A DNA stretch of 64,000 nucleotides from Stenotrophomonas sp. 24(2023) (GTDB lineage: Bacteria; Pseudomonadota; Gammaproteobacteria; Xanthomonadales; Xanthomonadaceae), in the NCBI RefSeq assembly GCF_030913365.1, contig NZ_CP133160.1, forward strand, positions 868,001 to 932,000. Direction: 5' to 3'. Below are positions 1-32,667 of the stretch, piece by piece. Numbering within the stretch: the stretch's first letter is position 1; each line of letters starts with the position of its first letter. The translations under genes were made by a program, and so were the position numbers. The notes below the pieces were generated by a model. The model was not told the DNA's origin, searched no databases, and was given only the letters and a program-made list of their open reading frames with translations.

Positions 1-618
1 CGAGAATTCCGAGCCCGGCGCGTGCGGCGCCACCCAGCGCCCCAGTGCGATGAACAGCAGCGGCAGGCCGACCAGCATCGCCAGCAGCGCCCCGCTCGAC
101 AGCGCCATGTGCAGCGGGTCACCCGCCTGCAGCACCACGAACAGGGCCGCCAGCGCCAGCAGTTCACCGGCGATGGCCTTGCTGGTCACCCAGAAGCGCT
201 CATCCTCGCTCAGGCCCAGCCGCGACAGCGAATCCATGATGAACCCGGTGGACGGCGTGAGCAGTGCCAGCGCCAGCAGCCCCGCCGCCTGCCACTGCAG
301 CCCAGCGTAATGCCAGGCCAGCCAGCCCACGCCGAACAGGGTGGCGGTACGGATGACCAGGTGCGCCAGCAGCGGCCACAGCCCGCGACGCAGGGCTGCC
401 AGGTCCACTTCCAGGCCGGCGAACAGGAACAGCGAGGAAATGCCGAGCGTGGCCAGCAGCCCGATCACCGCATCGTGCGCGCGCTCGCCCAGCCACAGCA
501 TGGCGATGATGCCGAAGGCCAGGCAGGTCAGCGGCGCCGGCAGGCTGAAACGCTGCAGCGCACGCGGGATGACCAGCAGCGCGAAGATCAGCGCCAGATA
601 GACCAGTTCATGGCTCAT
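1..618 (-). CDS. Cation/proton antiporter, CPA2-like (partial, N-terminal 206 residues)
   Basis: This is a reverse-strand reading frame that starts with ATG at 618 and runs off the left edge, so the C-terminus is missing. The visible 206 residues are almost entirely hydrophobic, with about six membrane segments separated by short charged loops. The stretch from LFLFAGLEVDL through LLTPSTGFIMDSLSRLGLS resembles the first half of sodium- or potassium/proton exchangers of the CPA2 (Kef/NapA-like) group. Such proteins exchange monovalent cations for protons across the inner membrane. The ion specificity cannot be read from this part, nor whether a C-terminal NAD-binding domain follows. It is divergent from the osmolyte operon that starts at 763. 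Confidence 0.75.
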   Translation of the reverse strand, partial: MSHELVYLALIFALLVIPRALQRFSLPAPLTCLAFGIIAMLWLGERAHDAVIGLLATLGISSLFLFAGLEVDLAALRRGLWPLLAHLVIRTATLFGVGWLAWHYAGLQWQAAGLLALALLTPSTGFIMDSLSRLGLSEDERFWVTSKAIAGELLALAALFVVLQAGDPLHMALSSGALLAMLVGLPLLFIALGRWVAPHAPGSEFS

Positions 619-721
619 CGGGAACTTCCATGTGGGGGACGCGCGCAGGATGCGCGCGTGCGCTGCTGCCAGCAAGCGCGCGCACCGGTAAACGAGGCAA
701 TCACGACGATGTGTTAGGGTG

Positions 722-762: not shown

Positions 763-2019
763 ATGTGGCGGCTGACTGCATTGCTGCTTGGCGTTGCCCT
801 GCTGCTGACCGGCAGCGGGCTGCTGGGTACGCTGCTGGCCGTGCGCGGCGGGCAGGAAGGCTTCAGTGCCGGCACGCTGGGCTGGATCATGTCCGGCTAC
901 TTCGCCGGCTATTTCATCGGCACCTTCACCGCCCCCCCGCTGATCCGCCGCATCGGCCACAGCCGTGCATTTGCCTTCCATGCCGCCCTGGCCACCATGG
1001 CCGTGCTGCTGCACCCGCTGTGGATCGATCCGCTCGGCTGGGTGCTGCTGCGCGTGCTGACCGGCATCGCGCTGGTGGGCCTGTACACGGTGATCGAGAG
1101 CTGGCTCAACGCCGAACCGGATGCTGGTCGGCGCAGCCGCGTGTTCTCGCTGTACATGATGGTCAACCTGTCGGCGCTGGCGCTGGGCCAGGTGGTGCTG
1201 CTGGCCGGTGATGCCGGTGCGGCCACGATGTTCACCCTGACCGCGCTGCTGGTCTGTGCAGCGATGTTGCCGGTCACCGCGACCCGCCTGCAGCAGCCGG
1301 AGGTGCCGCGCGTACCGCGGCTGACGCTGGGACGGTTGTATGCGCTGGCACCGGTTGCCACCCTGGCCGCCGGCCTGTCCGGGCTGGCAATGGGCGCGTT
1401 CTGGGGCCTGCTGCCGGTCTACGCCGAACAGATCGGCCTGCGCGATGCGGGCGTGCCGCTGTTCATGCTGACCGCCATCGCCGGCGGTGCGCTGCTGCAA
1501 TGGCCGCTGGGCCGCATCAGCGATGGCCATGACCGGCGGCTGGGCCTGCTCGTGCTGAGCGTGCTGGCTGCCGCCGTCGCCGCACTGGCTGCGGTGCCAC
1601 CGTTGACGCAGCAACTGCACGTGATGTTCCTGCTGGTGTTCTGCTACGGCGGGCTGGTGTTCGCGCTGTACCCGTTCGCCGTGGCGCACATGCTCGATTA
1701 CCTGCCCACCCGGGACCTGCTGTCCGGCTGCAGCAGCCTGCTGCTGGTGCATGGCGTCGGTGCGGCCATCGGCCCGGCCGTGGCCGGCGCGCTGATGCAG
1801 CGCTTCGGTGCGCCGGCGCTGCCGCTGTACTTCACCACGGTGCTGTTGATGCTCGCCGTGTTCACCGCCCTGCGCCTGCTGCGCCACACCCGTCTGCGCA
1901 CGCACCCGGCCACGTTCCGGCCGATGCTGCGCACCACGCCGGCCGCGCTGGAACTGATTCCCGACCCGGCCACCGAACCGGGCGACACCCCCATTCCCAC
2001 CCCGAAGGATGTGCATTGA
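763..2019 (+). CDS. ycaD: YcaD-like major facilitator superfamily transporter
   Basis: A 418-residue membrane protein with about 12 hydrophobic segments. Its order of motifs matches the E. coli YcaD family: SGYFAGYFIGT near segment 2, LLRVLTGIALVGLYTVIESWLN in the first half, and an internal VYAEQIGLRD loop. The substrate of this MFS family is not established. The ATG at 763 has a GAAGG ribosome site upstream. The stop codon overlaps the next gene's TTG start (TTGA at 2016-2019), so the two genes are translationally coupled. In S. rhizophila I recall a ycaD gene beside ggpPS, which fits this arrangement. A role in moving glucosylglycerol or a related solute is an inference from the coupling. 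The last 60 or so residues are a Pro/Thr-rich cytoplasmic tail. Confidence 0.85.
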   Translation: MWRLTALLLGVALLLTGSGLLGTLLAVRGGQEGFSAGTLGWIMSGYFAGYFIGTFTAPPLIRRIGHSRAFAFHAALATMAVLLHPLWIDPLGWVLLRVLTGIALVGLYTVIESWLNAEPDAGRRSRVFSLYMMVNLSALALGQVVLLAGDAGAATMFTLTALLVCAAMLPVTATRLQQPEVPRVPRLTLGRLYALAPVATLAAGLSGLAMGAFWGLLPVYAEQIGLRDAGVPLFMLTAIAGGALLQWPLGRISDGHDRRLGLLVLSVLAAAVAALAAVPPLTQQLHVMFLLVFCYGGLVFALYPFAVAHMLDYLPTRDLLSGCSSLLLVHGVGAAIGPAVAGALMQRFGAPALPLYFTTVLLMLAVFTALRLLRHTRLRTHPATFRPMLRTTPAALELIPDPATEPGDTPIPTPKDVH

Positions 2020-4343
2020 CTGTCCAGTCCCCTCCCCTGATCCCGAACCCCGTTCTTTCCGATGCAACCGCTGCCACCCCGCAGCTGGTCCTGGCCACCG
2101 ACCTGGATGGCACCTTCCTCGCCGGTACCGCGCCACAGCGCCATCGCCTGTACCGGCTGATCGACCAGCATCCCGGCATCTGTCTGGTCTTCATCACCGG
2201 CCGCGGCCTGGAAGCGGTCATGCCGCTGCTGGCCGACCCGGCCATTCCCCGCCCGGACTACATCGTCTGCGACGTCGGCGCCACCGTGGTCGATGGCCGC
2301 ACCCTGCAGCCGCTGCAACCCCTGCAGTCGATGATCGATGCCCACTGGCCCGGCGAGCAGGTGGTGGCCGAGGCGATGCGTGGCTTCACCGCGCTGCAGC
2401 GCCAGGACGTGCCGCAGGAGCGCCGCTGTTCCTATTTCTGCGACCCGGCCACGCTGGCGCCGCTGCGTGAGGGCATCGAGCGCACCGCGCGCGCGCTGGG
2501 CTGCGATGTGCTGTATTCGGCCGACCGCTACCTGGACATCCTGCCGCCGGATACCGACAAGGGCCGCACGCTGGCGGCACTGGCACGCCTGCTGGACCTG
2601 CCGCGCGAACGCATCCTGGTGGCCGGTGACACCCTCAACGACCTGTCGATGTACGTGGCCGGCTTCCGTGGTGTCTGCGTGGGCGATTCCGAGCCGGCGC
2701 TGGTGGAGGCCACGCGCCGCCTGGCACGTACCTGGCACGCCAGCGCCCCCGGTTGCGGCGGCATCCTGCAGGCGATCGCGCACTTCGGCCTGCTGGCGGC
2801 CGACGATCCCCTGCTGCTGCAGGTGCCTGCGACACCGGCCGAAGGCGCCGACCTGGTGATGGTCTATCACCGCCTGCCCTTCGATGAAGCCATCGAGGAT
2901 GGCCGGCTGGTGCAACGCCCGCCGCGCTCACCGAACGGCATCATTCCCTCGCTGCTGAGCTTCTTTGAAAGCGGGCAGCGCGGCAGCTGGGTGGCCTGGG
3001 GCATCGACGATCCCAAACACCGGCCGTTCCAGCGCCACGTGGAGGTCGATCGCGAACGCTACCCCACCCTGCGCGCCACCCGCGTACCGCTCAGCCGGCA
3101 GGACGTGGACATCTTCTACAAGCGTTTTTCCAAGGAAGCGTTCTGGCCGATGCTGCACGTGTTCTGGGAACGTGCGCGCTTCCGCGAGGACGACTGGCAG
3201 GTGTTCCTGAAGGTCAACCGCCGCTTCGCCGAGGCCGTGGCCGAGGAAGCCGCACACGGTGCCACCGTGTGGATCCACGACTACAACCTGTGGATGGTGC
3301 CGGCCGCACTGCGCGAACTGCGCCCGGACCTGAAGATCGCCTTCTTCCACCACACCTACTTCCCCTCGGCCGATGTGTTCAACGTGGTGCCATGGCGGCG
3401 CGAGATCATCGGCAGCCTGCTGTGCTGCGATTACATCGGCTTCCACATTCCCCGCCAGGTGGAAAACTTCGTGGACGTGGTGCGCGGGGCGATGCCCGCC
3501 GAGCGGCTGGCCTGGGAAAGCTGCGCGCCGCGCTTCCTGACCTATGGCTGCGCGGTGGGCCTGGACACCATGACCACCCGCCTGCGCATCGGCGAGCGCG
3601 ACGTGGCACTGGGCGCGCACCCGGTCGGCACCGATCTGCGCCGCATCCGCAGCACGCTGGCGCGCAGCGATGTGCGCAACGACCTGTTCAAGCTGCGCCG
3701 CGAGATCGGCACGCGGCGGCTGGTGCTGTCGGTGGAACGGCTGGACTACACCAAGGGCACGCTGGCCAAGCTGGAAGCGTTCGAGCGCGTGCTGGAGACG
3801 CACCCGGCGCACTGCGGCAAGGTCACCCTGCTGATGGTGTGCGTGCCGGCCGCGCGCGAGATGACCGTCTACCGCACCCTGCAGACGCAGATCGAACAGG
3901 CGGTGGGGCGCATCAACGGGCGCTTCTCGCGGCTGGACTGGACACCGGTGCGCTTCTTCGCCCAGGCGCTGCCGTTCGAACAGGTGGTGGCCCACTACGC
4001 CGCCGCGCAGGTGATGTGGATCACCCCGCTGCGTGATGGCCTGAACCTGGTGGCCAAGGAGTTCGTGGCCACCCAGGGCATCGAGGGCACGCCCGGCGTG
4101 CTGGTGCTGAGTGAGTTCGCCGGCGCGGCCGCCGAACTGAAGGGGGCGGTGCTGACCAACCCGCATGATCCGGCCGATCTGGCCGCTGGTCTGCTGCAGG
4201 CCCTGTCGATGCCGGAAGAAGAAGCCAGCGCGCGCCTGCGCCAGCTGCAGGGCATCGTGGAGTATTACGACGTGGACCGCTGGGGGCGGGATTTCCTCGC
4301 CGCGGTGGAGGAGGCCACCGCGCAGGATGCGGGAGGCCGGTAG
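2016..4343 (+). CDS. ggpPS: Bifunctional glucosylglycerol-phosphate synthase/phosphatase
   Basis: A 775-residue fusion with a HAD-type phosphatase domain (about 20-270) in front of a GT20 glycosyltransferase domain (about 285-760). The phosphatase has DLDGT at 29-33 (nucleophile Asp29, acid Asp31) and a late GDTLND motif. The transferase has HDYNLWMVP, RLDYTKG and DGLNLVAKEF, the sugar-nucleotide and phosphate contacts of the OtsA/GgpS superfamily. VGRINGRFSRLDWTPVRFF and TKGTLAKLEAFERVLE look like GgpS rather than OtsA, and a separate otsBA locus lies at 28730-32667. The expected reaction is ADP-glucose plus glycerol-3-phosphate to glucosylglycerol-phosphate, then dephosphorylation to the compatible solute glucosylglycerol. 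The start is TTG at 2016, inside the ycaD stop, with AAGGA six bases upstream; no in-frame ATG lies nearby. A trehalose-phosphate enzyme is the alternative. Confidence 0.88.
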   Translation: MTVQSPPLIPNPVLSDATAATPQLVLATDLDGTFLAGTAPQRHRLYRLIDQHPGICLVFITGRGLEAVMPLLADPAIPRPDYIVCDVGATVVDGRTLQPLQPLQSMIDAHWPGEQVVAEAMRGFTALQRQDVPQERRCSYFCDPATLAPLREGIERTARALGCDVLYSADRYLDILPPDTDKGRTLAALARLLDLPRERILVAGDTLNDLSMYVAGFRGVCVGDSEPALVEATRRLARTWHASAPGCGGILQAIAHFGLLAADDPLLLQVPATPAEGADLVMVYHRLPFDEAIEDGRLVQRPPRSPNGIIPSLLSFFESGQRGSWVAWGIDDPKHRPFQRHVEVDRERYPTLRATRVPLSRQDVDIFYKRFSKEAFWPMLHVFWERARFREDDWQVFLKVNRRFAEAVAEEAAHGATVWIHDYNLWMVPAALRELRPDLKIAFFHHTYFPSADVFNVVPWRREIIGSLLCCDYIGFHIPRQVENFVDVVRGAMPAERLAWESCAPRFLTYGCAVGLDTMTTRLRIGERDVALGAHPVGTDLRRIRSTLARSDVRNDLFKLRREIGTRRLVLSVERLDYTKGTLAKLEAFERVLETHPAHCGKVTLLMVCVPAAREMTVYRTLQTQIEQAVGRINGRFSRLDWTPVRFFAQALPFEQVVAHYAAAQVMWITPLRDGLNLVAKEFVATQGIEGTPGVLVLSEFAGAAAELKGAVLTNPHDPADLAAGLLQALSMPEEEASARLRQLQGIVEYYDVDRWGRDFLAAVEEATAQDAGGR

Positions 4344-4447: not shown

Positions 4448-5368
4448 TCAGCCGATCAGGGCGTCGGCCAGGACGCCGACCCGTGCGATCACCGCATCGC
4501 GCTGGGCGTCGTCCACCTTCGCGCCCTGCAGGTAGGCCGTGATGACCCACGGGGTGCCACCGGCACGCGGCCACAGCACGGCGATGTCATTGCGGGTGTC
4601 CTCGCCATTGCTGCCGGTCTTGTCGCCCACCCGCCAGCGCTTGCCCAGCCCGGCACGCAGGCAGGTGTCGCCGGTCTGGTTGTCGATCAGCCAGTCGGCG
4701 TACTGCAGGCGCGCGGCCTTGGACAGGCCATCGCCAAGCGCGAACCGTGCCAGGCTGGCGGCCATCGCCGCCGGGCTGGTGGTGTCGCGCGGATCGCCTG
4801 CAGCGAACTGGTTCATTTCAGGCTCGTAGCGATCGTTGCGGGTCACGCTGTCACCCTGCGCGCGCAGGAACGCCGTCAGTGCCGACGGGCCGCCACTGAG
4901 CCGCAGCAGCAGGTTGGCGGCGGTGTTGTCGCTGGTGATCATCGTGCCCTGGCACAGGTCGCGCACGCTCAGGTCCTTGCCGACATGACGGCGCGCCACC
5001 GGTGCCCATGACAGCAGGTCCTTGTCGGTGATCGGCAGGCGCGTATCCAGCGACAGGCGCCCGGCATCGGCCAGGCTGAGCACATGGGCGACCAGCATCG
5101 ACTTGAAGGTGCTGCACATCGGGAAGCGCTCGTCCTGCCGATGCCCGGCGATGCGGCGGCCGCTGCCGGTATCCAGCACGCTCACGCCCAGCCGGCCGCC
5201 GCTGGCCTTTTCCAGCGCAGCGAAATCGGCGGCCTGGCCGATCGCCGCGCGCACGGCCGCATCGGTGGCCGTGGCGGCCGGAGTGGCGGCACGGGCAAGC
5301 AGCGGCGCGGCCAGGGCCGAGGCCAGCGTGGCACCACTGAACTGCAGGAATCGACGACGGGCAAGCAT
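4448..5368 (-). CDS. blaL2: Class A beta-lactamase, L2 type
   Basis: A 306-residue serine beta-lactamase with all class A motifs: STFK at 86-89 (acylated serine), SDN at 146-148, EPEMN at 182-186 (the general-base glutamate) and KTG at 250-252. The N-terminus RRRFLQFSG, followed by a hydrophobic stretch ending ARA, is a twin-arginine-type export signal, so the enzyme acts in the periplasm. Sequence style and context match the inducible L2 cephalosporinase of Stenotrophomonas. The ATG at 5368 was chosen because AGGAGG lies seven bases upstream and the Tat motif starts at once; a longer frame from 5440 adds only junk-like residues. It is divergent from ampR, with 193 bp between the starts, and is presumably AmpR-activated. 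Confidence 0.95.
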   Translation of the reverse strand: MLARRRFLQFSGATLASALAAPLLARAATPAATATDAAVRAAIGQAADFAALEKASGGRLGVSVLDTGSGRRIAGHRQDERFPMCSTFKSMLVAHVLSLADAGRLSLDTRLPITDKDLLSWAPVARRHVGKDLSVRDLCQGTMITSDNTAANLLLRLSGGPSALTAFLRAQGDSVTRNDRYEPEMNQFAAGDPRDTTSPAAMAASLARFALGDGLSKAARLQYADWLIDNQTGDTCLRAGLGKRWRVGDKTGSNGEDTRNDIAVLWPRAGGTPWVITAYLQGAKVDDAQRDAVIARVGVLADALIG

Positions 5369-5460
5369 GGGAATCCTCCTGGAAGGGCCACTGCGCGGCC
5401 CGGGCTGGCACTGATTATTGGAAGCCCGGCGGGCCTTCACCAGCGCGAATATTCAAGGCC

Positions 5461-5483
5461 AGCCATGAATCATTCTCATGGCT
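5461..5483. promoter_or_regulatory. Candidate AmpR operator between blaL2 and ampR
   Basis: AGCCATGA-N7-TCATGGCT is a perfect 8-bp inverted repeat. Its inner bases form T-N11-A (T5466 to A5478), the core pattern of LysR-type regulator sites. It lies 93 bp upstream of the blaL2 start and 79 bp upstream of the ampR start, where a divergent LysR operator is expected. It is the most symmetric element in this intergenic region. Confidence 0.6.
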
Positions 5484-5561
5484 TGCATGGAATCCACGGC
5501 GGATTTACCCCTGGGCATGGCCCCGGTTAGCATCGGCCATCACTCCTGCTCACCCCTGGCC

Positions 5562-6428
5562 ATGCTCCGCCCTGCCCTGCCCCTGAACGCGCTGCGTGCC
5601 TTCGAAGCCGCCGCCCGCCACCAGAACTTCACCCGTGCCGCCCTTGAGCTGTGCGTGAGCCAGGCCGCGCTGAGCCACCAGATCCGTGGCCTGGAGGACC
5701 GGCTGGGGGTGCGCCTGTTCCATCGCCTGCCACGCGGCGTGGCGCTGACCGATGAAGGGGCGGCGCTGTACCCGGTGCTGCATGAATCGTTCGACCGCAT
5801 CGCCGCCAGCGTGGCGCGCTATACCGGCGGCGGCGTGCGCGAAGTGCTGACCGTCGGCGTGGTCGGCACCTTCGCCACTGGCTGGCTGCTGCCGCGCCTG
5901 CCGGCGTTCGAGGCGGCGCACCCGGATATCGAACTGCGCATGCAGACGCACAACAACCGCATCGATCTGGCCGGCGAAGGCCTGGACCTGGCGATCCGTT
6001 TCGGTGAGGGCGATTGGCAGGGCCAGGTGTGCACGCCGGTGCTGGATGCACCGTTCACACCGCTGTGCGCACCGGCACTGGCGCGCCGGCTGCGCGCGCC
6101 GCGCGACCTGGGCGCGGTACCGCTGCTGCGCTCGTACCGCAGCGATGAATGGCCGCGCTGGCTGCAGGCGGCGGGCAGCGATGACATCGAGGCACGCGGT
6201 CCGGTGTTCGACTCTTCGCTGACCCTGGCTGCAGCGGCGGCCGGCGGCAGCGGCGTGGCCCTGCTGCCGCTGTGCATGTTCGAGCAGGAACTGGCAGAGG
6301 GCCGGCTGCTGCAGCCCTTCGCCGTCACCCTGGACCTGGGCCGCTACTGGCTCACGCGACTGCGCTCGCGCGCCGAAGGCGAACCGGCCAGGCGCTTCCG
6401 CGCGTGGCTGCAGGCCCAGGGCGGGTAA
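5562..6428 (+). CDS. ampR: LysR-family regulator of the beta-lactamase
   Basis: A 288-residue LysR-type regulator. The N-terminal helix-turn-helix (about residues 18-40, FTRAALELCVSQAALSHQIR) and the opening LPLNALRAFEAAARHQNF are typical of AmpR. The C-terminal effector domain follows. In Stenotrophomonas and enterobacteria, AmpR senses cell-wall muropeptides and switches the divergent beta-lactamase gene. The ATG at 5562 was preferred over the in-frame ATG at 5478, because family members begin at the equivalent MLRP residues and the earlier start would run through the candidate operator. Gene pairing with blaL2 makes the assignment firm, although the inducer response is inferred. Confidence 0.92.
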   Translation: MLRPALPLNALRAFEAAARHQNFTRAALELCVSQAALSHQIRGLEDRLGVRLFHRLPRGVALTDEGAALYPVLHESFDRIAASVARYTGGGVREVLTVGVVGTFATGWLLPRLPAFEAAHPDIELRMQTHNNRIDLAGEGLDLAIRFGEGDWQGQVCTPVLDAPFTPLCAPALARRLRAPRDLGAVPLLRSYRSDEWPRWLQAAGSDDIEARGPVFDSSLTLAAAAAGGSGVALLPLCMFEQELAEGRLLQPFAVTLDLGRYWLTRLRSRAEGEPARRFRAWLQAQGG

Positions 6429-28594: not shown

Positions 28595-28635
28595 TCGCAT
28601 CGGCGGCCTGTGCCCCGGCACGGGCCGTCCTGCAT

Positions 28636-28663
28636 CCCGCCGGACCGGACCGGTACCGGCGGG
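28636..28663. repeat. Inverted repeat after the TonB-dependent receptor gene
   Basis: CCCGCCGG-N12-CCGGCGGG, perfect 8-bp arms, with a smaller GGACCGG/CCGGTACC structure in the loop. It is in the 135-bp gap before otsB. It could be a transcript-end hairpin without a T-run. Confidence 0.4.
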
Positions 28664-28729
28664 TCGCTGGCGGGGTCACCGGGCGCGCCTCGACCCCGCC
28701 TACACGCGCGCGCTGGCATCGTGCGTGGC

Positions 28730-29488
28730 ATGGCTGATGATCTCCCCCTGCGTCCGCCGCCACCGCTGCTGGACGATGCCTGTGCATTGTTCCTGGATGT
28801 CGATGGCACCCTGATCGAATTCTCCCAGCGCCCGGACACCGTGCAGTTGCTGCCGGACGTGCGCGAAGCGGTCGGCCGCATCAGCGACCGCCTGGAAGGT
28901 GCGGTGGCACTGGTCAGCGGCCGCCCGCTGGCGCAGATCGATGCCCTGTTCGCGCCCCTGCGGCTGCCCTCCGCCGGCCTGCACGGCCACGAACTGCGTG
29001 GCCAGGACGGCCAGGTCATCCGTGATGCGCACGATGACCACACCGGCGACTGGCTGCACGCGCTGCACCAGCAGGCCATGCGCTTCGCGCACGGGCATCC
29101 CGGCGTGCTGGTGGAAGACAAGGGGCCCAGCCTGGCCCTGCACTGGCGGGGCGCCCCGCACGCCGGCAACGATGTGCGGGCCTTTGCCGAACGCCATATC
29201 CGCGGCCACAGCGGGTACCGCCTGCAGCCGGGCGACCATGTGGTCGAGTTCGTACCAGTGGGCAGCGACAAGGGCCGCGCCGTGCGCAGGATGATGCAGT
29301 ACCTGCCCTTCCGCGGCCGGTTGCCGGTGTTCATCGGCGATGACCTGACCGATGAATTCGGCTTCGATGCGGCCAATGGCCTGCATGGCTGGAGTGTACT
29401 GGTGGGTGAACGCGAACCCAGCGCGGCCGTGTTTTCCCTGCCGGACATACGCAGCGTGCACGCCTGGCTGCGTGAGAATGCCTACTGA
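28730..29488 (+). CDS. otsB: Trehalose-6-phosphate phosphatase
   Basis: A 252-residue HAD-family phosphatase with LFLDVDGTL at 21-29 (nucleophile Asp23, acid Asp25), LVSGRPLAQIDALF, and the late motif FIGDDLTDEFGF that binds magnesium. It converts trehalose-6-phosphate to trehalose. First gene of the otsB-GH15-otsA unit, 27 bp before the next. The ATG at 28730 was chosen; a GTG nine bases earlier is possible. It lacks the glycosyltransferase domain that ggpPS carries, so the trehalose pathway uses separate enzymes here. Confidence 0.92.
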   Translation: MADDLPLRPPPPLLDDACALFLDVDGTLIEFSQRPDTVQLLPDVREAVGRISDRLEGAVALVSGRPLAQIDALFAPLRLPSAGLHGHELRGQDGQVIRDAHDDHTGDWLHALHQQAMRFAHGHPGVLVEDKGPSLALHWRGAPHAGNDVRAFAERHIRGHSGYRLQPGDHVVEFVPVGSDKGRAVRRMMQYLPFRGRLPVFIGDDLTDEFGFDAANGLHGWSVLVGEREPSAAVFSLPDIRSVHAWLRENAY

Positions 29489-29515
29489 CGTGCCGCCCCC
29501 ACGGCCGCAACCGAG

Positions 29516-31309
29516 ATGTCCAGCGTGATGACCCAACCCGATCTTGATCTGGGCGTGGTCGGCAACGGCAGCTTCGGCGCCCTGCTCGACAAGCGCGCCC
29601 GCGTCGTCTGGAGCTGCCTGCCCACCTTCGACGGCGACCCCACCTTCTGCGCCCTGCTGGGGCCCAACCAGCAGGAGGGCGGCGATTTTTCCATCGAACT
29701 GGAAGACTTCGCCGGCAGCGAGCAGGCCTACCTGACCAACACCGCCATCCTGCGCACCGTGCTGCGCGACCGCCATGGCGGCGTGCTGGAAATCCTCGAC
29801 TTCGCGCCCCGCTGGCGGCAGAACGACCGCTTCTACCGGCCGGTCAGCCTGGTCCGCCAGGTGCGCCCGCTCGCCGGCAGCCCGCGCATCATCGTGCGCG
29901 CGCGCCCACTGGCCGACTGGGGCGCGCGCGTGCCCGACTCCACCTGGGGCAGCAACCACGTGCGCTGGATCCTGCCCGACCACGTGCTGCGGCTGACCAC
30001 CGACGTCCCCGTGCGCTTCGTCCGCGACGGGCTGCCGTTCGTGCTCAACCATCCCATCCACCTGATCCTGGGCGTGGATGAATCACTGACCCGGTCGATA
30101 AGCGGCTATGTCCAGGAAGCGTTCCAGCGCACGCGTGACTACTGGCGCGAATGGGTGCGCTACCTGTCCATTCCACTGGAGTGGCAGGACGCGGTGATCC
30201 GCAGCGCGATCACCCTGAAGCTGTGCCAGTACGAAGACAGCGGCGCGATCATCGCCGCGATGACCACCTCCATCCCGGAAGCACCCGGCAGCAGCCGCAA
30301 CTGGGATTACCGCTACTGCTGGCTGCGCGATGCCGCCTTCGTGGTGCGCGCGCTGAACCGCCTGGGCGCCACCCGCACCATGGAGCAGTTCCTGGGCTAC
30401 ATCTTCAACATCGCCACCACCGACGGCACGCTGCAGCCGTTGTACGGCATTGGCTTCGAGGCCCGCCTGGACGAGGACGAGGTCCCCAGCCTGTCCGGCT
30501 ACCGCGGCATGGGCCCGGTACGCCGTGGCAACCTGGCCTGGGTCCAGCGCCAGCACGATGTCTATGGCAGCGTGGTGCTGGCCTCCACCCAGCTGTTCTT
30601 CGACCGCCGCCTGCAGGACCCGGGCGATGCGCATGCCTTCGCGCGGCTGGAACCGCTGGGCGAGCAGGCCTTTGCCCTGCACGACGTGCCCGATGCCGGC
30701 CTGTGGGAATTCCGTGGCCGTACCGAGGTGCACACCTATACCAGCGCGATGTGCTGGGCCGCCTGCGATCGCCTGTGCAAGATCGCCATCCGCCTCAAGC
30801 GCGACGACCGCGCACAGTACTGGCGCGAGCGTGCGGACACCATCCACGCCCGCATCATGGACAAGGCGTGGAATGAAGATCTCGGCCACTTCACCGATGC
30901 CTTCGACGGGCACCGCCTGGATGCATCCCTGCTGCTGCTGGCGGACATCGGCTTCATCGCTGCCACCGATGCGCGCTTCATCGCCACCGTGGAGGCCATC
31001 GGGCGCGACCTCAAGCATGGCAACGCGCTGTACCGCTATGTCGCCCCGGATGATTTCGGCGCACCGGAAACCAGCTTCACCATCTGCACGTTCTGGTACA
31101 TCGATGCGCTGGCGGCGATCGGCCGGCTGGACGAAGCACGGGCGATGTTCGAGACCCTGCTGGAACAGCGCAACCACCTGGGCCTGCTGTCGGAAGACCT
31201 GGCCTTCGACACCGGCGAGGCCTGGGGCAATTTCCCGCAGACCTATTCCCATGTGGGCCTGATCACGGCAGCCATGCGCCTGTCGCGCTCCTGGCAGGAT
31301 GCCTCGTGA
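29516..31309 (+). CDS. Glycoside hydrolase family 15 protein of the trehalose operon
   Basis: A 597-residue cytoplasmic protein. An N-terminal beta-sandwich domain (about 1-230, LGVVGNGSFGALLDKRARVVWSCLPTFDGDPTF) precedes an (alpha/alpha)6 barrel with SRNWDYRYCWLRDAAFVVRAL, EVHTYTSAMCWAACDRL and LLSEDLAFDTGEAWGNFPQTYSHVGLI. This is the glucoamylase-like GH15 fold; some bacterial members are trehalases. No signal peptide, so it acts on an internal substrate such as trehalose or short glucans. Its place between otsB and otsA, with its stop overlapping the otsA start (GTGA), implies a role in trehalose turnover. The exact substrate is not shown by the sequence. Confidence 0.88.
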   Translation: MSSVMTQPDLDLGVVGNGSFGALLDKRARVVWSCLPTFDGDPTFCALLGPNQQEGGDFSIELEDFAGSEQAYLTNTAILRTVLRDRHGGVLEILDFAPRWRQNDRFYRPVSLVRQVRPLAGSPRIIVRARPLADWGARVPDSTWGSNHVRWILPDHVLRLTTDVPVRFVRDGLPFVLNHPIHLILGVDESLTRSISGYVQEAFQRTRDYWREWVRYLSIPLEWQDAVIRSAITLKLCQYEDSGAIIAAMTTSIPEAPGSSRNWDYRYCWLRDAAFVVRALNRLGATRTMEQFLGYIFNIATTDGTLQPLYGIGFEARLDEDEVPSLSGYRGMGPVRRGNLAWVQRQHDVYGSVVLASTQLFFDRRLQDPGDAHAFARLEPLGEQAFALHDVPDAGLWEFRGRTEVHTYTSAMCWAACDRLCKIAIRLKRDDRAQYWRERADTIHARIMDKAWNEDLGHFTDAFDGHRLDASLLLLADIGFIAATDARFIATVEAIGRDLKHGNALYRYVAPDDFGAPETSFTICTFWYIDALAAIGRLDEARAMFETLLEQRNHLGLLSEDLAFDTGEAWGNFPQTYSHVGLITAAMRLSRSWQDAS

Positions 31310-32667
31310 GCCGCCTGGTGGTGGTGTCCAACCGCGTCGCCGTGCCCGGGGAGAACCGCGCCGGTGGCCTGGCCGTTGGCCTGCTGGCGGCACTGCGCGA
31401 GCGCGGCGGGCTATGGTTCGGCTGGAGCGGCAGGAGCACGCGCGAAAGCGGCGCACTGCATGAGCAGCGCGACGGCGACATCCGCTTCGTGACCATGGAC
31501 CTGTCCAAGCGTGATGTCGATGGTTACTACAACGGCTTCGCCAACCGCACGCTGTGGCCGTTGCTGCACTTCCGGCTGGACCTGGTGGACTACGATCGCG
31601 GCACCCGCGAGATCTACCACCAGGTCAATGCGCTGTTCGCCGACAGGCTCGCCCCGCTGCTGCGCGACGACGATATCGTCTGGATCCACGACTACCACCT
31701 GATCCCGCTGGCGGCGATGCTGCGCGAGCGCGGCATCGGTTGCCGCATCGGTTTCTTCCTGCACATCCCGATGCCCTCGGCCGACCTGCTGCAGGCGATG
31801 CCCGACCACCTGCGGCTGTTCTCGGCGCTGTATGCCTACGACCTGGTCGGCTTCCAGACCCAGCGCGATGCCGATCGCTTCCAGACCTACGTCCGCCTGT
31901 TCGGCGGTGGCACGGTGCTGGGCGATGGCACGCTGCAGGCGCCGGGCGGACGCCGCTTCCGTGCGGCCGCGTTCCCGATCGGCATCGACACCGCGCTGAT
32001 CGCCCAGCAGGCCGCCACCGCCGTCGGCAAGAGTGCGGTGAAGGACCTGCGTGCCAGCCTGCGCAACCGGCAGCTGGCCATCGGCGTGGACCGCCTGGAC
32101 TACTCCAAGGGGCTGCCGGAACGCTTCCAGGGCTTCGAGCGTTATCTCGAACGCCATCCCGACCAGCGCGGCACGCTCACCTACCTGCAGATCGCCCCGG
32201 TCTCACGTGGCGATGTCACCGAATACCGGCAGCTGCGCAGCCAGCTCGAACAGACCGCCGGCCACATCAACGGCGGCCATGCCGCACCGGACTGGACGCC
32301 GCTGCGCTACGTCAACCAGAACTTCACCCATGCCACCCTGACCGGCTTCTACCGTGCCGCCGCCGTGGGGCTGGTGACGCCGCTGCGCGATGGCATGAAC
32401 CTGGTGGCCAAGGAATACGTCGCCTCGCAGGACCCGGACAATCCTGGCGTGCTGGTGCTGTCCCTGCTGGCCGGTGCCGCCGACGAACTCAAGCAGGCGC
32501 TGCTGGTGAACCCCTACGATCTGGACGGCATGGCCGATGCCATCGCCACTGCGGCGACGATGTCGCTGCGCCGGCGCCAGGAACGCTGGCACGCGATGAT
32601 GGAGCACCTGCGCACCTACGACATCAACCATTGGCGGCGCAGCTACCTGGCGGCATTGGAAGCATGA
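31306..32667 (+). CDS. otsA: Trehalose-6-phosphate synthase
   Basis: A 453-residue GT20 glycosyltransferase. It has the N-terminal NRVAVP...RAGGLAVGL loop that binds UDP-glucose and glucose-6-phosphate, [35 protein letters not shown] (the conserved Arg and Lys) and [12 protein letters not shown]. These match OtsA closely, in contrast to the GgpS-style wording of the fusion protein at 2016. It makes trehalose-6-phosphate from a nucleotide-glucose and glucose-6-phosphate, feeding OtsB. The start is GTG at 31306, overlapping the GH15 stop by 4 bp, so translation is coupled. The operon ends here, followed by a GCCGGGC hairpin. Confidence 0.95.

Follow-up and report, generated by a model that had tools for sequence, protein, structure and literature searches.

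The gene pair and its features

The window, by which we mean the whole 64,000-nucleotide stretch of Stenotrophomonas sp. 24(2023) analysed here (contig NZ_CP133160.1, positions 868,001 to 932,000), comes from a genome that forms a single 4.52-Mb contig and is 99.97% complete. Near its start, a gene for a transporter of the major facilitator superfamily (MFS) is followed on the same strand by ggpPS, predicted to encode a bifunctional glucosylglycerol-phosphate phosphatase/synthase (GgpPS). The features of this pair are as follows.

763..2019, forward strand: MFS transporter gene, putative glucosylglycerol exporter; 418 amino acids, ATG start; Pfam MFS_1, 86 bits
2016..4343, forward strand: ggpPS, predicted bifunctional glucosylglycerol-phosphate phosphatase/synthase; 775 amino acids, TTG start; TIGR02398, 716.5 bits, cut-off 569
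2016..2019, forward strand: TTGA stop/start overlap between the two genes; the TTG at 2016-2018 shares bases with the TGA at 2017-2019
2079..2792, forward strand: HAD (S6PP) phosphatase domain of GgpPS, residues 22-259; Pfam, 220.6 bits
2853..4310, forward strand: GT20 synthase domain (Glyco_transf_20) of GgpPS, residues 280-765; Pfam, 420.2 bits
3852..3854, forward strand: Ala613 codon, aligned with the acceptor arginine of OtsA; alignment of 36 GgpPS and six OtsA proteins

A sequence-only reading of this DNA had described two open reading frames, the second starting at TTG inside the stop of the first, and both are there, at 763-2019 and 2016-4343 with a 4-base overlap. The order that it gave, phosphatase then synthase, is borne out by Pfam; the synthase domain is present too, although the limits proposed for it (285-760) were slightly too narrow. 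The N-terminal HAD phosphatase and the C-terminal GT20 synthase lie on a single chain, and the phosphatase carries DLDGT at 29, FITGR at 59, DTDKGR at 179 and GDTLND at 204, which we take to be the HAD catalytic motifs.

The fused protein is a glucosylglycerol-phosphate synthase by model, tree and acceptor site

We are nearly certain that the window protein is a GgpPS of the kind known from S. rhizophila, an identity supported by family models, a tree and acceptor-site residues. It passes TIGR02398, the model for glucosylglycerol-phosphate synthase, and falls short of the cut-off of TIGR02400, the model for OtsA (420.8 against 564.85 bits). The OtsA that the genome itself encodes at 31306-32667, taken as a control, scores 593.6 bits with TIGR02400 and 272.9 with TIGR02398. 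The sequence-only reading had proposed a tree against OtsA proteins. In one of 48 rows, which includes six OtsA (the genome's own and that of E. coli among them) and no cyanobacterial GgpS, the OtsA rows split off at 100/100 and the window protein sits among fused GgpPS.

The acceptor contacts of OtsA are Arg18, Tyr90, Asp144, Gln146 and Arg324 (PMC6879718); their mapping onto GgpPS, by alignment with an offset of one, is our own. Three contacts are retained (Arg18 as Arg286, Tyr90 as Tyr368, Asp144 as Asp422). The equivalent of Gln146 is Asn424, and this place holds Asn in 36 of 36 GgpPS and His in all six OtsA. The arginine that contacts glucose-6-phosphate (Mtr Arg324) is Ala613 in the window protein, with Ala in 35 and Ser in one of the 36 GgpPS and Arg in 6/6 OtsA. 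The remaining catalytic and diphosphate-contact residues compared are unchanged except for a single Met to Leu. This pattern is what an acceptor shift away from glucose-6-phosphate would look like.

Records from a plasmid collection, assigned to Kitasatospora, Embleya and Streptomyces, align over both GgpPS domains at 36-40% identity; the Kitasatospora protein (L170 7908-10142) has Glu at the acceptor-arginine place and sits on a very long branch.

The MFS gene accompanies ggpPS and belongs to one clade

Co-occurrence was counted in 121 genomes, our own included, of which 73 are congeneric. Full-length ggpPS is present in 24 of these 73, and the MFS protein (search at 1e-30) in the identical 24 and no others (Fisher p 8e-20, uncorrected for kinship). 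Outside the genus, both ggpPS genomes carry an MFS homologue (64% and 55%), and 11 genomes without ggpPS carry more distant ones (31-51%).

Linkage was examined in 80 named ggpPS loci of Gamma- and Betaproteobacteria, the best 80 of 523, some of them cut by contig ends. In 70 of them an MFS gene on the same strand is found no more than 2 kb from ggpPS, upstream in 66 and downstream in four (L046, L047, L071 and L073, in the last of which it is 1.8 kb away); L037 is counted as linked though its MFS match is in two pieces. Among these best 80 matches, linked loci occur in Stenotrophomonas, Xanthomonas, Pseudoxanthomonas, Lysobacter, Luteimonas and Arenimonas, and also in Pseudomonas, Azoarcus, Thauera, Methyloversatilis, Solimonas and others. 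Two of the ten loci without an adjacent MFS gene (L080, L068) have a close relative of it elsewhere in the genome; the other eight have none. A 2008 abstract by Hagemann et al. reportedly notes frequent linkage of ggpPS to a gene for an MFS transporter.

In a quick tree of 87 MFS proteins (51 linked, 35 unlinked and E. coli YcaD), all 51 linked rows, the window protein included, fall inside one 58-row clade with SH-aLRT support of 100. The linkage label requires 6 changes on this tree against 27.9 in shuffles, none of 500 being as low, a figure to which near-copies contribute. The sequence-only reading had called the transporter YcaD-like. A loose resemblance stands, since the two share the MFS superfamily and 29% identity, but YcaD lies far outside the linked clade on a long branch, and the window protein reaches only 141 bits against a cut-off of 361 with NF002962, presumably the YcaD family model. 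YcaD is thus a name to drop for the linked MFS protein. Two further sequence clues were discarded: linkage-specific residues were not telling as to substrate (13 positions, of which only Asn135 is polar), and a C-terminal RT-motif considered as a marker of linkage proved, by eye, to be family-wide and common to unlinked members.

Translational coupling and control

Of 38 Lysobacteraceae-type loci in which an MFS gene precedes ggpPS (rows L001-L039, L044 and L053, excluding L019, L024 and L037, which have no intact upstream MFS gene), 35 offer a start at -4 that overlaps the MFS stop; the three misses are L020, L034 and L044. In some of the 38, an alternative ATG further downstream could serve as the ggpPS start, and outside this group the first ATG in frame is mostly found 35-273 bases past the MFS stop. 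Because the arrangement recurs in many genomes and the -4 start in 35 of 38 loci, the arrangement is not due to chance, and translational coupling of the two genes looks conserved in the Lysobacteraceae-type family. The sequence-only reading went too far in claiming that coupling forces equal expression: overlap links the translation of two genes but leaves their ratio free, and the published transcript inductions are 8.3- and 7.7-fold (PMC3653106).

Two features lie upstream of the pair.

712..720, forward strand: extended -10-like element TGnTAnnnT, a candidate promoter for both genes; aligned upstream regions
1..618, reverse strand: divergent CPA2-type cation:proton antiporter gene, cut by the window edge, a neighbour outside the operon; TIGR00932, 40.2 bits for the fragment, cut-off 238.3

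The element is kept in 16 of 16 aligned upstream regions, read by eye; a scan for the plain sigma-70 consensus gave no site. A homologue of the antiporter lies near ggpPS in 7 of the 80 named loci.

A probable glucosylglycerol unit with a putative transporter

On balance, we read the pair as a salt-induced unit that makes glucosylglycerol, a compound that protects against salt, with the MFS protein moving this solute across the inner membrane. The two genes would probably form one salt-induced transcription unit. The GT20 domain would join nucleotide-activated glucose, from a nucleotide sugar that we can only infer, to glycerol-3-phosphate, and the N-terminal HAD domain would remove the phosphate, leaving glucosylglycerol. 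The MFS protein, whose translation immediately precedes that of GgpPS, would most likely carry the product across the inner membrane, presumably outward when it over-accumulates or salt falls. That the MFS protein carries glucosylglycerol we consider likely; whether transport runs outward is an even call. An exporter role is plausible and fits both the co-occurrence and the adjacency, which are evidence of genetic linkage.

This inference about the transporter is already published (PMC3653106, PMC4101175, PMC4390839, PMC6753628), and the locus is a typical one of its kind. In S. rhizophila both genes are salt-induced and glucosylglycerol excretion increases (PMC3653106); ycaD has been called a glucosylglycerol transporter (PMC4101175, PMC7404187) and proposed as an exporter, characterisation pending (PMC4390839, PMC6753628). 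New here are the counts of linkage, the grouping of the linked MFS proteins in one clade, the sub-threshold YcaD score and the lack of a recognisable GlgC (ADP-glucose pyrophosphorylase) described below.

Several results weigh against our reading. Eight of the 80 ggpPS genomes lack a close MFS relative, so synthesis does not depend on the MFS protein; metagenome-assembled genomes, or MAGs, account for three of the eight (L024, L040, L051). Seven unlinked MFS proteins share the linked clade. No fused ggpPS turned up in their genomes (at 1e-100 for six, the seventh being G118), and no osmolyte gene was recognised, by eye, beside them; one of the six genomes, G145, has a split ggpP-ggpS at another place than its clade MFS gene. 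None of the 13 linkage-specific positions is a charged residue that separates linked from outside MFS proteins, and no solved structure matches the window MFS protein by sequence. The broad MFS family occurs in 78 of 369 class-wide genomes (1e-40), against 4 of 369 for GgpPS-like proteins at the stricter 1e-100. On the biosynthetic side, the genome has no recognisable GlgC (best TIGR02091 score 37.9 bits, cut-off 424.9). Given the seven unlinked clade members and the failed YcaD test, the substrate of the MFS protein is one that we infer.

The transporter could instead work inward, retrieving glucosylglycerol that the cell has leaked, or importing this solute or related glycosides made by neighbours. 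Clade members persist in genomes without a fused ggpPS, as expected if an outside solute is used, and cyanobacteria retrieve compatible solutes by uptake. We nevertheless regard import as unlikely, because the MFS gene is induced together with synthesis and excretion of glucosylglycerol under salt has been reported for S. rhizophila (PMC3653106). Similarly improbable, in our judgement, is a transporter of other cargo (another glycoside, a metabolite or a drug) that sits beside ggpPS for shared salt control only. The class-wide spread of its family and the RT-motif common to unlinked members would suit such a protein; against it stand the exact co-occurrence within the genus, adjacency both upstream and downstream, and the position of 28 of the 35 unlinked tree members (E. 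coli YcaD not counted) outside the linked clade. As for the enzyme, there is next to no chance that the fused protein, though of the GT20 family, is a trehalose-6-phosphate synthase/phosphatase: OtsA model, tree and missing acceptor arginine all speak against it, and the genome already has otsA (31306-32667) and otsB (28610-29488; TIGR00685, 113 bits, cut-off 68).

That trehalose set, at window 28610-32667 and ~24-27 kb from ggpPS, consists of otsB, a glycosidase-like gene and otsA. The glycosidase-like gene comes nearest to the trehalase TreH1 but scores below that model's threshold (290 against 820). Where a relative carries both ggpPS and otsA on a single contig, their spacing is often similar to that in the window.

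Export or degradation

A glycoside phosphorylase gene follows ggpPS in four loci without an adjacent MFS gene (L063, L068, L072, L079) and in L049, which has both. The L063 protein matches the NCBIfam model for sucrose phosphorylase at 490.5 bits, and the GH13_18 enzyme at that place in Marinobacter is called a glucosylglycerol phosphorylase (PMC10873239). A phosphorylase of this type thus stands beside 4 of the 10 loci without an adjacent MFS gene against 1 of the 70 with one (Fisher p 6e-4, the four being related); L059 has a weak match (29%) on the opposite strand, which was left uncounted. The split locus G139 adjoins a gene for a GHL5 glycoside hydrolase, whose connection with glucosylglycerol there would be a guess. 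Homologues of gghA were not found in the GgpPS heterotrophs covered by Fig. 1 of PMC10873239. These data suggest that export can stand in for the breakdown of glucosylglycerol, a lead from a small and related sample.

Most fused-GgpPS genomes examined have no recognisable source of ADP-glucose of the usual kind

Reviews give glucosylglycerol synthesis as a reaction of ADP-glucose with glycerol-3-phosphate (PMC6753628, PMC4390839), and GgpS of Synechocystis requires ADP-glucose and does not use UDP-glucose (PMC6004087). In the present genome, the five matches to the NTP-transferase family are named by NCBIfam models as RmlA, GalU, MurU, GlmU and mannose-1-phosphate guanylyltransferase, and sucrose synthase was not found either (best 20.3 bits, cut-off 810.4). 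GlgC is present in 13 of the 121 genomes and in none of the 26 that bear ggpPS, our own included. Among 50 genomes from the 80 named loci, GlgC was found in six and had no match at 1e-40 in the other 44, a survey in which MAGs may be incomplete. When the present genome was scored with TIGR02091, 7 of 14 control genomes exceeded the cut-off. Among the controls of the wider searches, B. subtilis, which we take to have a glgC, gave no match at 1e-60 or 1e-40, so divergent GlgC may be missed elsewhere.

Subject to that control, most fused-GgpPS genomes examined are without the usual ADP-glucose source. ADP-glucose, the donor named in the sequence-only reading, is therefore in doubt: either the fused enzyme uses UDP-glucose or another donor, or an unrecognised enzyme supplies ADP-glucose. 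We found no literature statement on this gap in the excerpts available, and the 2008 enzyme paper may address it. Tentatively, GgpPS of GlgC-less heterotrophs might use another donor, most simply UDP-glucose (from GalU), with the linked MFS protein as an efflux valve that replaces degradation, lineages either exporting or phosphorolysing the solute. The donor of the fused enzyme is in any case a simple, testable question, with relevance for building the pathway in ADP-glucose-poor hosts.

One residue was considered as a switch away from ADP-glucose accompanying glgC loss. The site of Mtr Arg361 holds Gln in Stenotrophomonas-Xanthomonas-Pseudoxanthomonas rows (Lys in L002), Gln also in L024 and L052, and mostly Arg elsewhere; L038 does not cover it. 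The idea was dropped, since the 44 of 50 genomes without GlgC mostly have Arg and the Arg361 contact in OtsA is to a backbone carbonyl (PMC6879718).

Origin of the fusion and a clue to the acceptor

Unfused relatives have the same gene order. In two other gammaproteobacterial genomes (G139 and G145), a gene for a HAD phosphatase, confirmed as S6PP by Pfam, directly precedes a GgpS-like gene; in G127 (L150 3500-4457), HAD-like stretches before such a gene are interrupted by stops or frame and may be a broken gene or sequencing errors. Dinoroseobacter shibae and Falsirhodobacter algicola have genes for glycerol-3-phosphate dehydrogenase, a HAD phosphatase and GgpS in a row, and the fused ggpPS of Tistrella has a glycerol-3-phosphate dehydrogenase match upstream. 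The dehydrogenase gene thus lies just upstream in 3 of 3 alphaproteobacterial loci examined, which supports glycerol-3-phosphate as the acceptor. Because split pairs exist in other genomes, fusion of a pre-existing phosphatase-synthase pair would be the simplest origin of GgpPS. On the 48-row tree the fused state needs 3 changes, 2 of them forced by starred branches; fusion or its reversal may have occurred repeatedly.

Comparison with known systems

Fused GgpPS has been described in several heterotrophs (PMC10873239). The closest known counterpart of the window pair is in the same genus: in S. rhizophila DSM 14405, ggpPS (DX03_04600) has the same fused phosphatase-synthase order (PMC10873239) and ycaD (DX03_04605) is the neighbouring locus tag (PMC4101175). 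Identity was compared with four other S. rhizophila strains rather than with the type-strain genes; their ggpPS is ~87% identical, and by identity the window is from another species. The nearest named ggpPS are in a MAG titled S. maltophilia (92%) and in S. chelatiphaga (87%). Marinobacter adhaerens, with its ggpPS-ggp arrangement, also has a fused GgpPS (PMC10873239), but the Marinobacter loci (L063, L072, L079) differ from the window in having the GH13_18 phosphorylase gene next and no adjacent MFS gene. The gpsA-ggpP-ggpS operons of Dinoroseobacter and Falsirhodobacter share gene order and families with the window; unlike it, they are split, have the dehydrogenase upstream and contain no annotated MFS gene within the 18-kb stretches examined. 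Cyanobacteria such as Synechocystis use the same two-step route, with ggpS and ggpP as separate genes.

ggpPS has been proposed as a marker of S. rhizophila (PMC7404187). It is no marker of that species alone: 24 of the 73 congeneric genomes carry it, and S. chelatiphaga, S. nematodicola and S. bentonitica are among the species with named loci. Nor does it separate pathogenic strains from non-pathogenic ones (PMC9797726). Glucosylglycerol is sold for cosmetics, and there is demand for an exporter capable of continuous release (PMC6753628); a set of homologues is now available for exporter tests.

A record titled Bacillus subtilis SK7B5 (L016) bears a Stenotrophomonas-like ggpPS locus (86%) and is probably mislabelled or contaminated. 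The genes just downstream of the pair, at window 4448-6428, encode a class A beta-lactamase of the L2 family (545 bits, cut-off 540) and, divergently, a LysR-type regulator.

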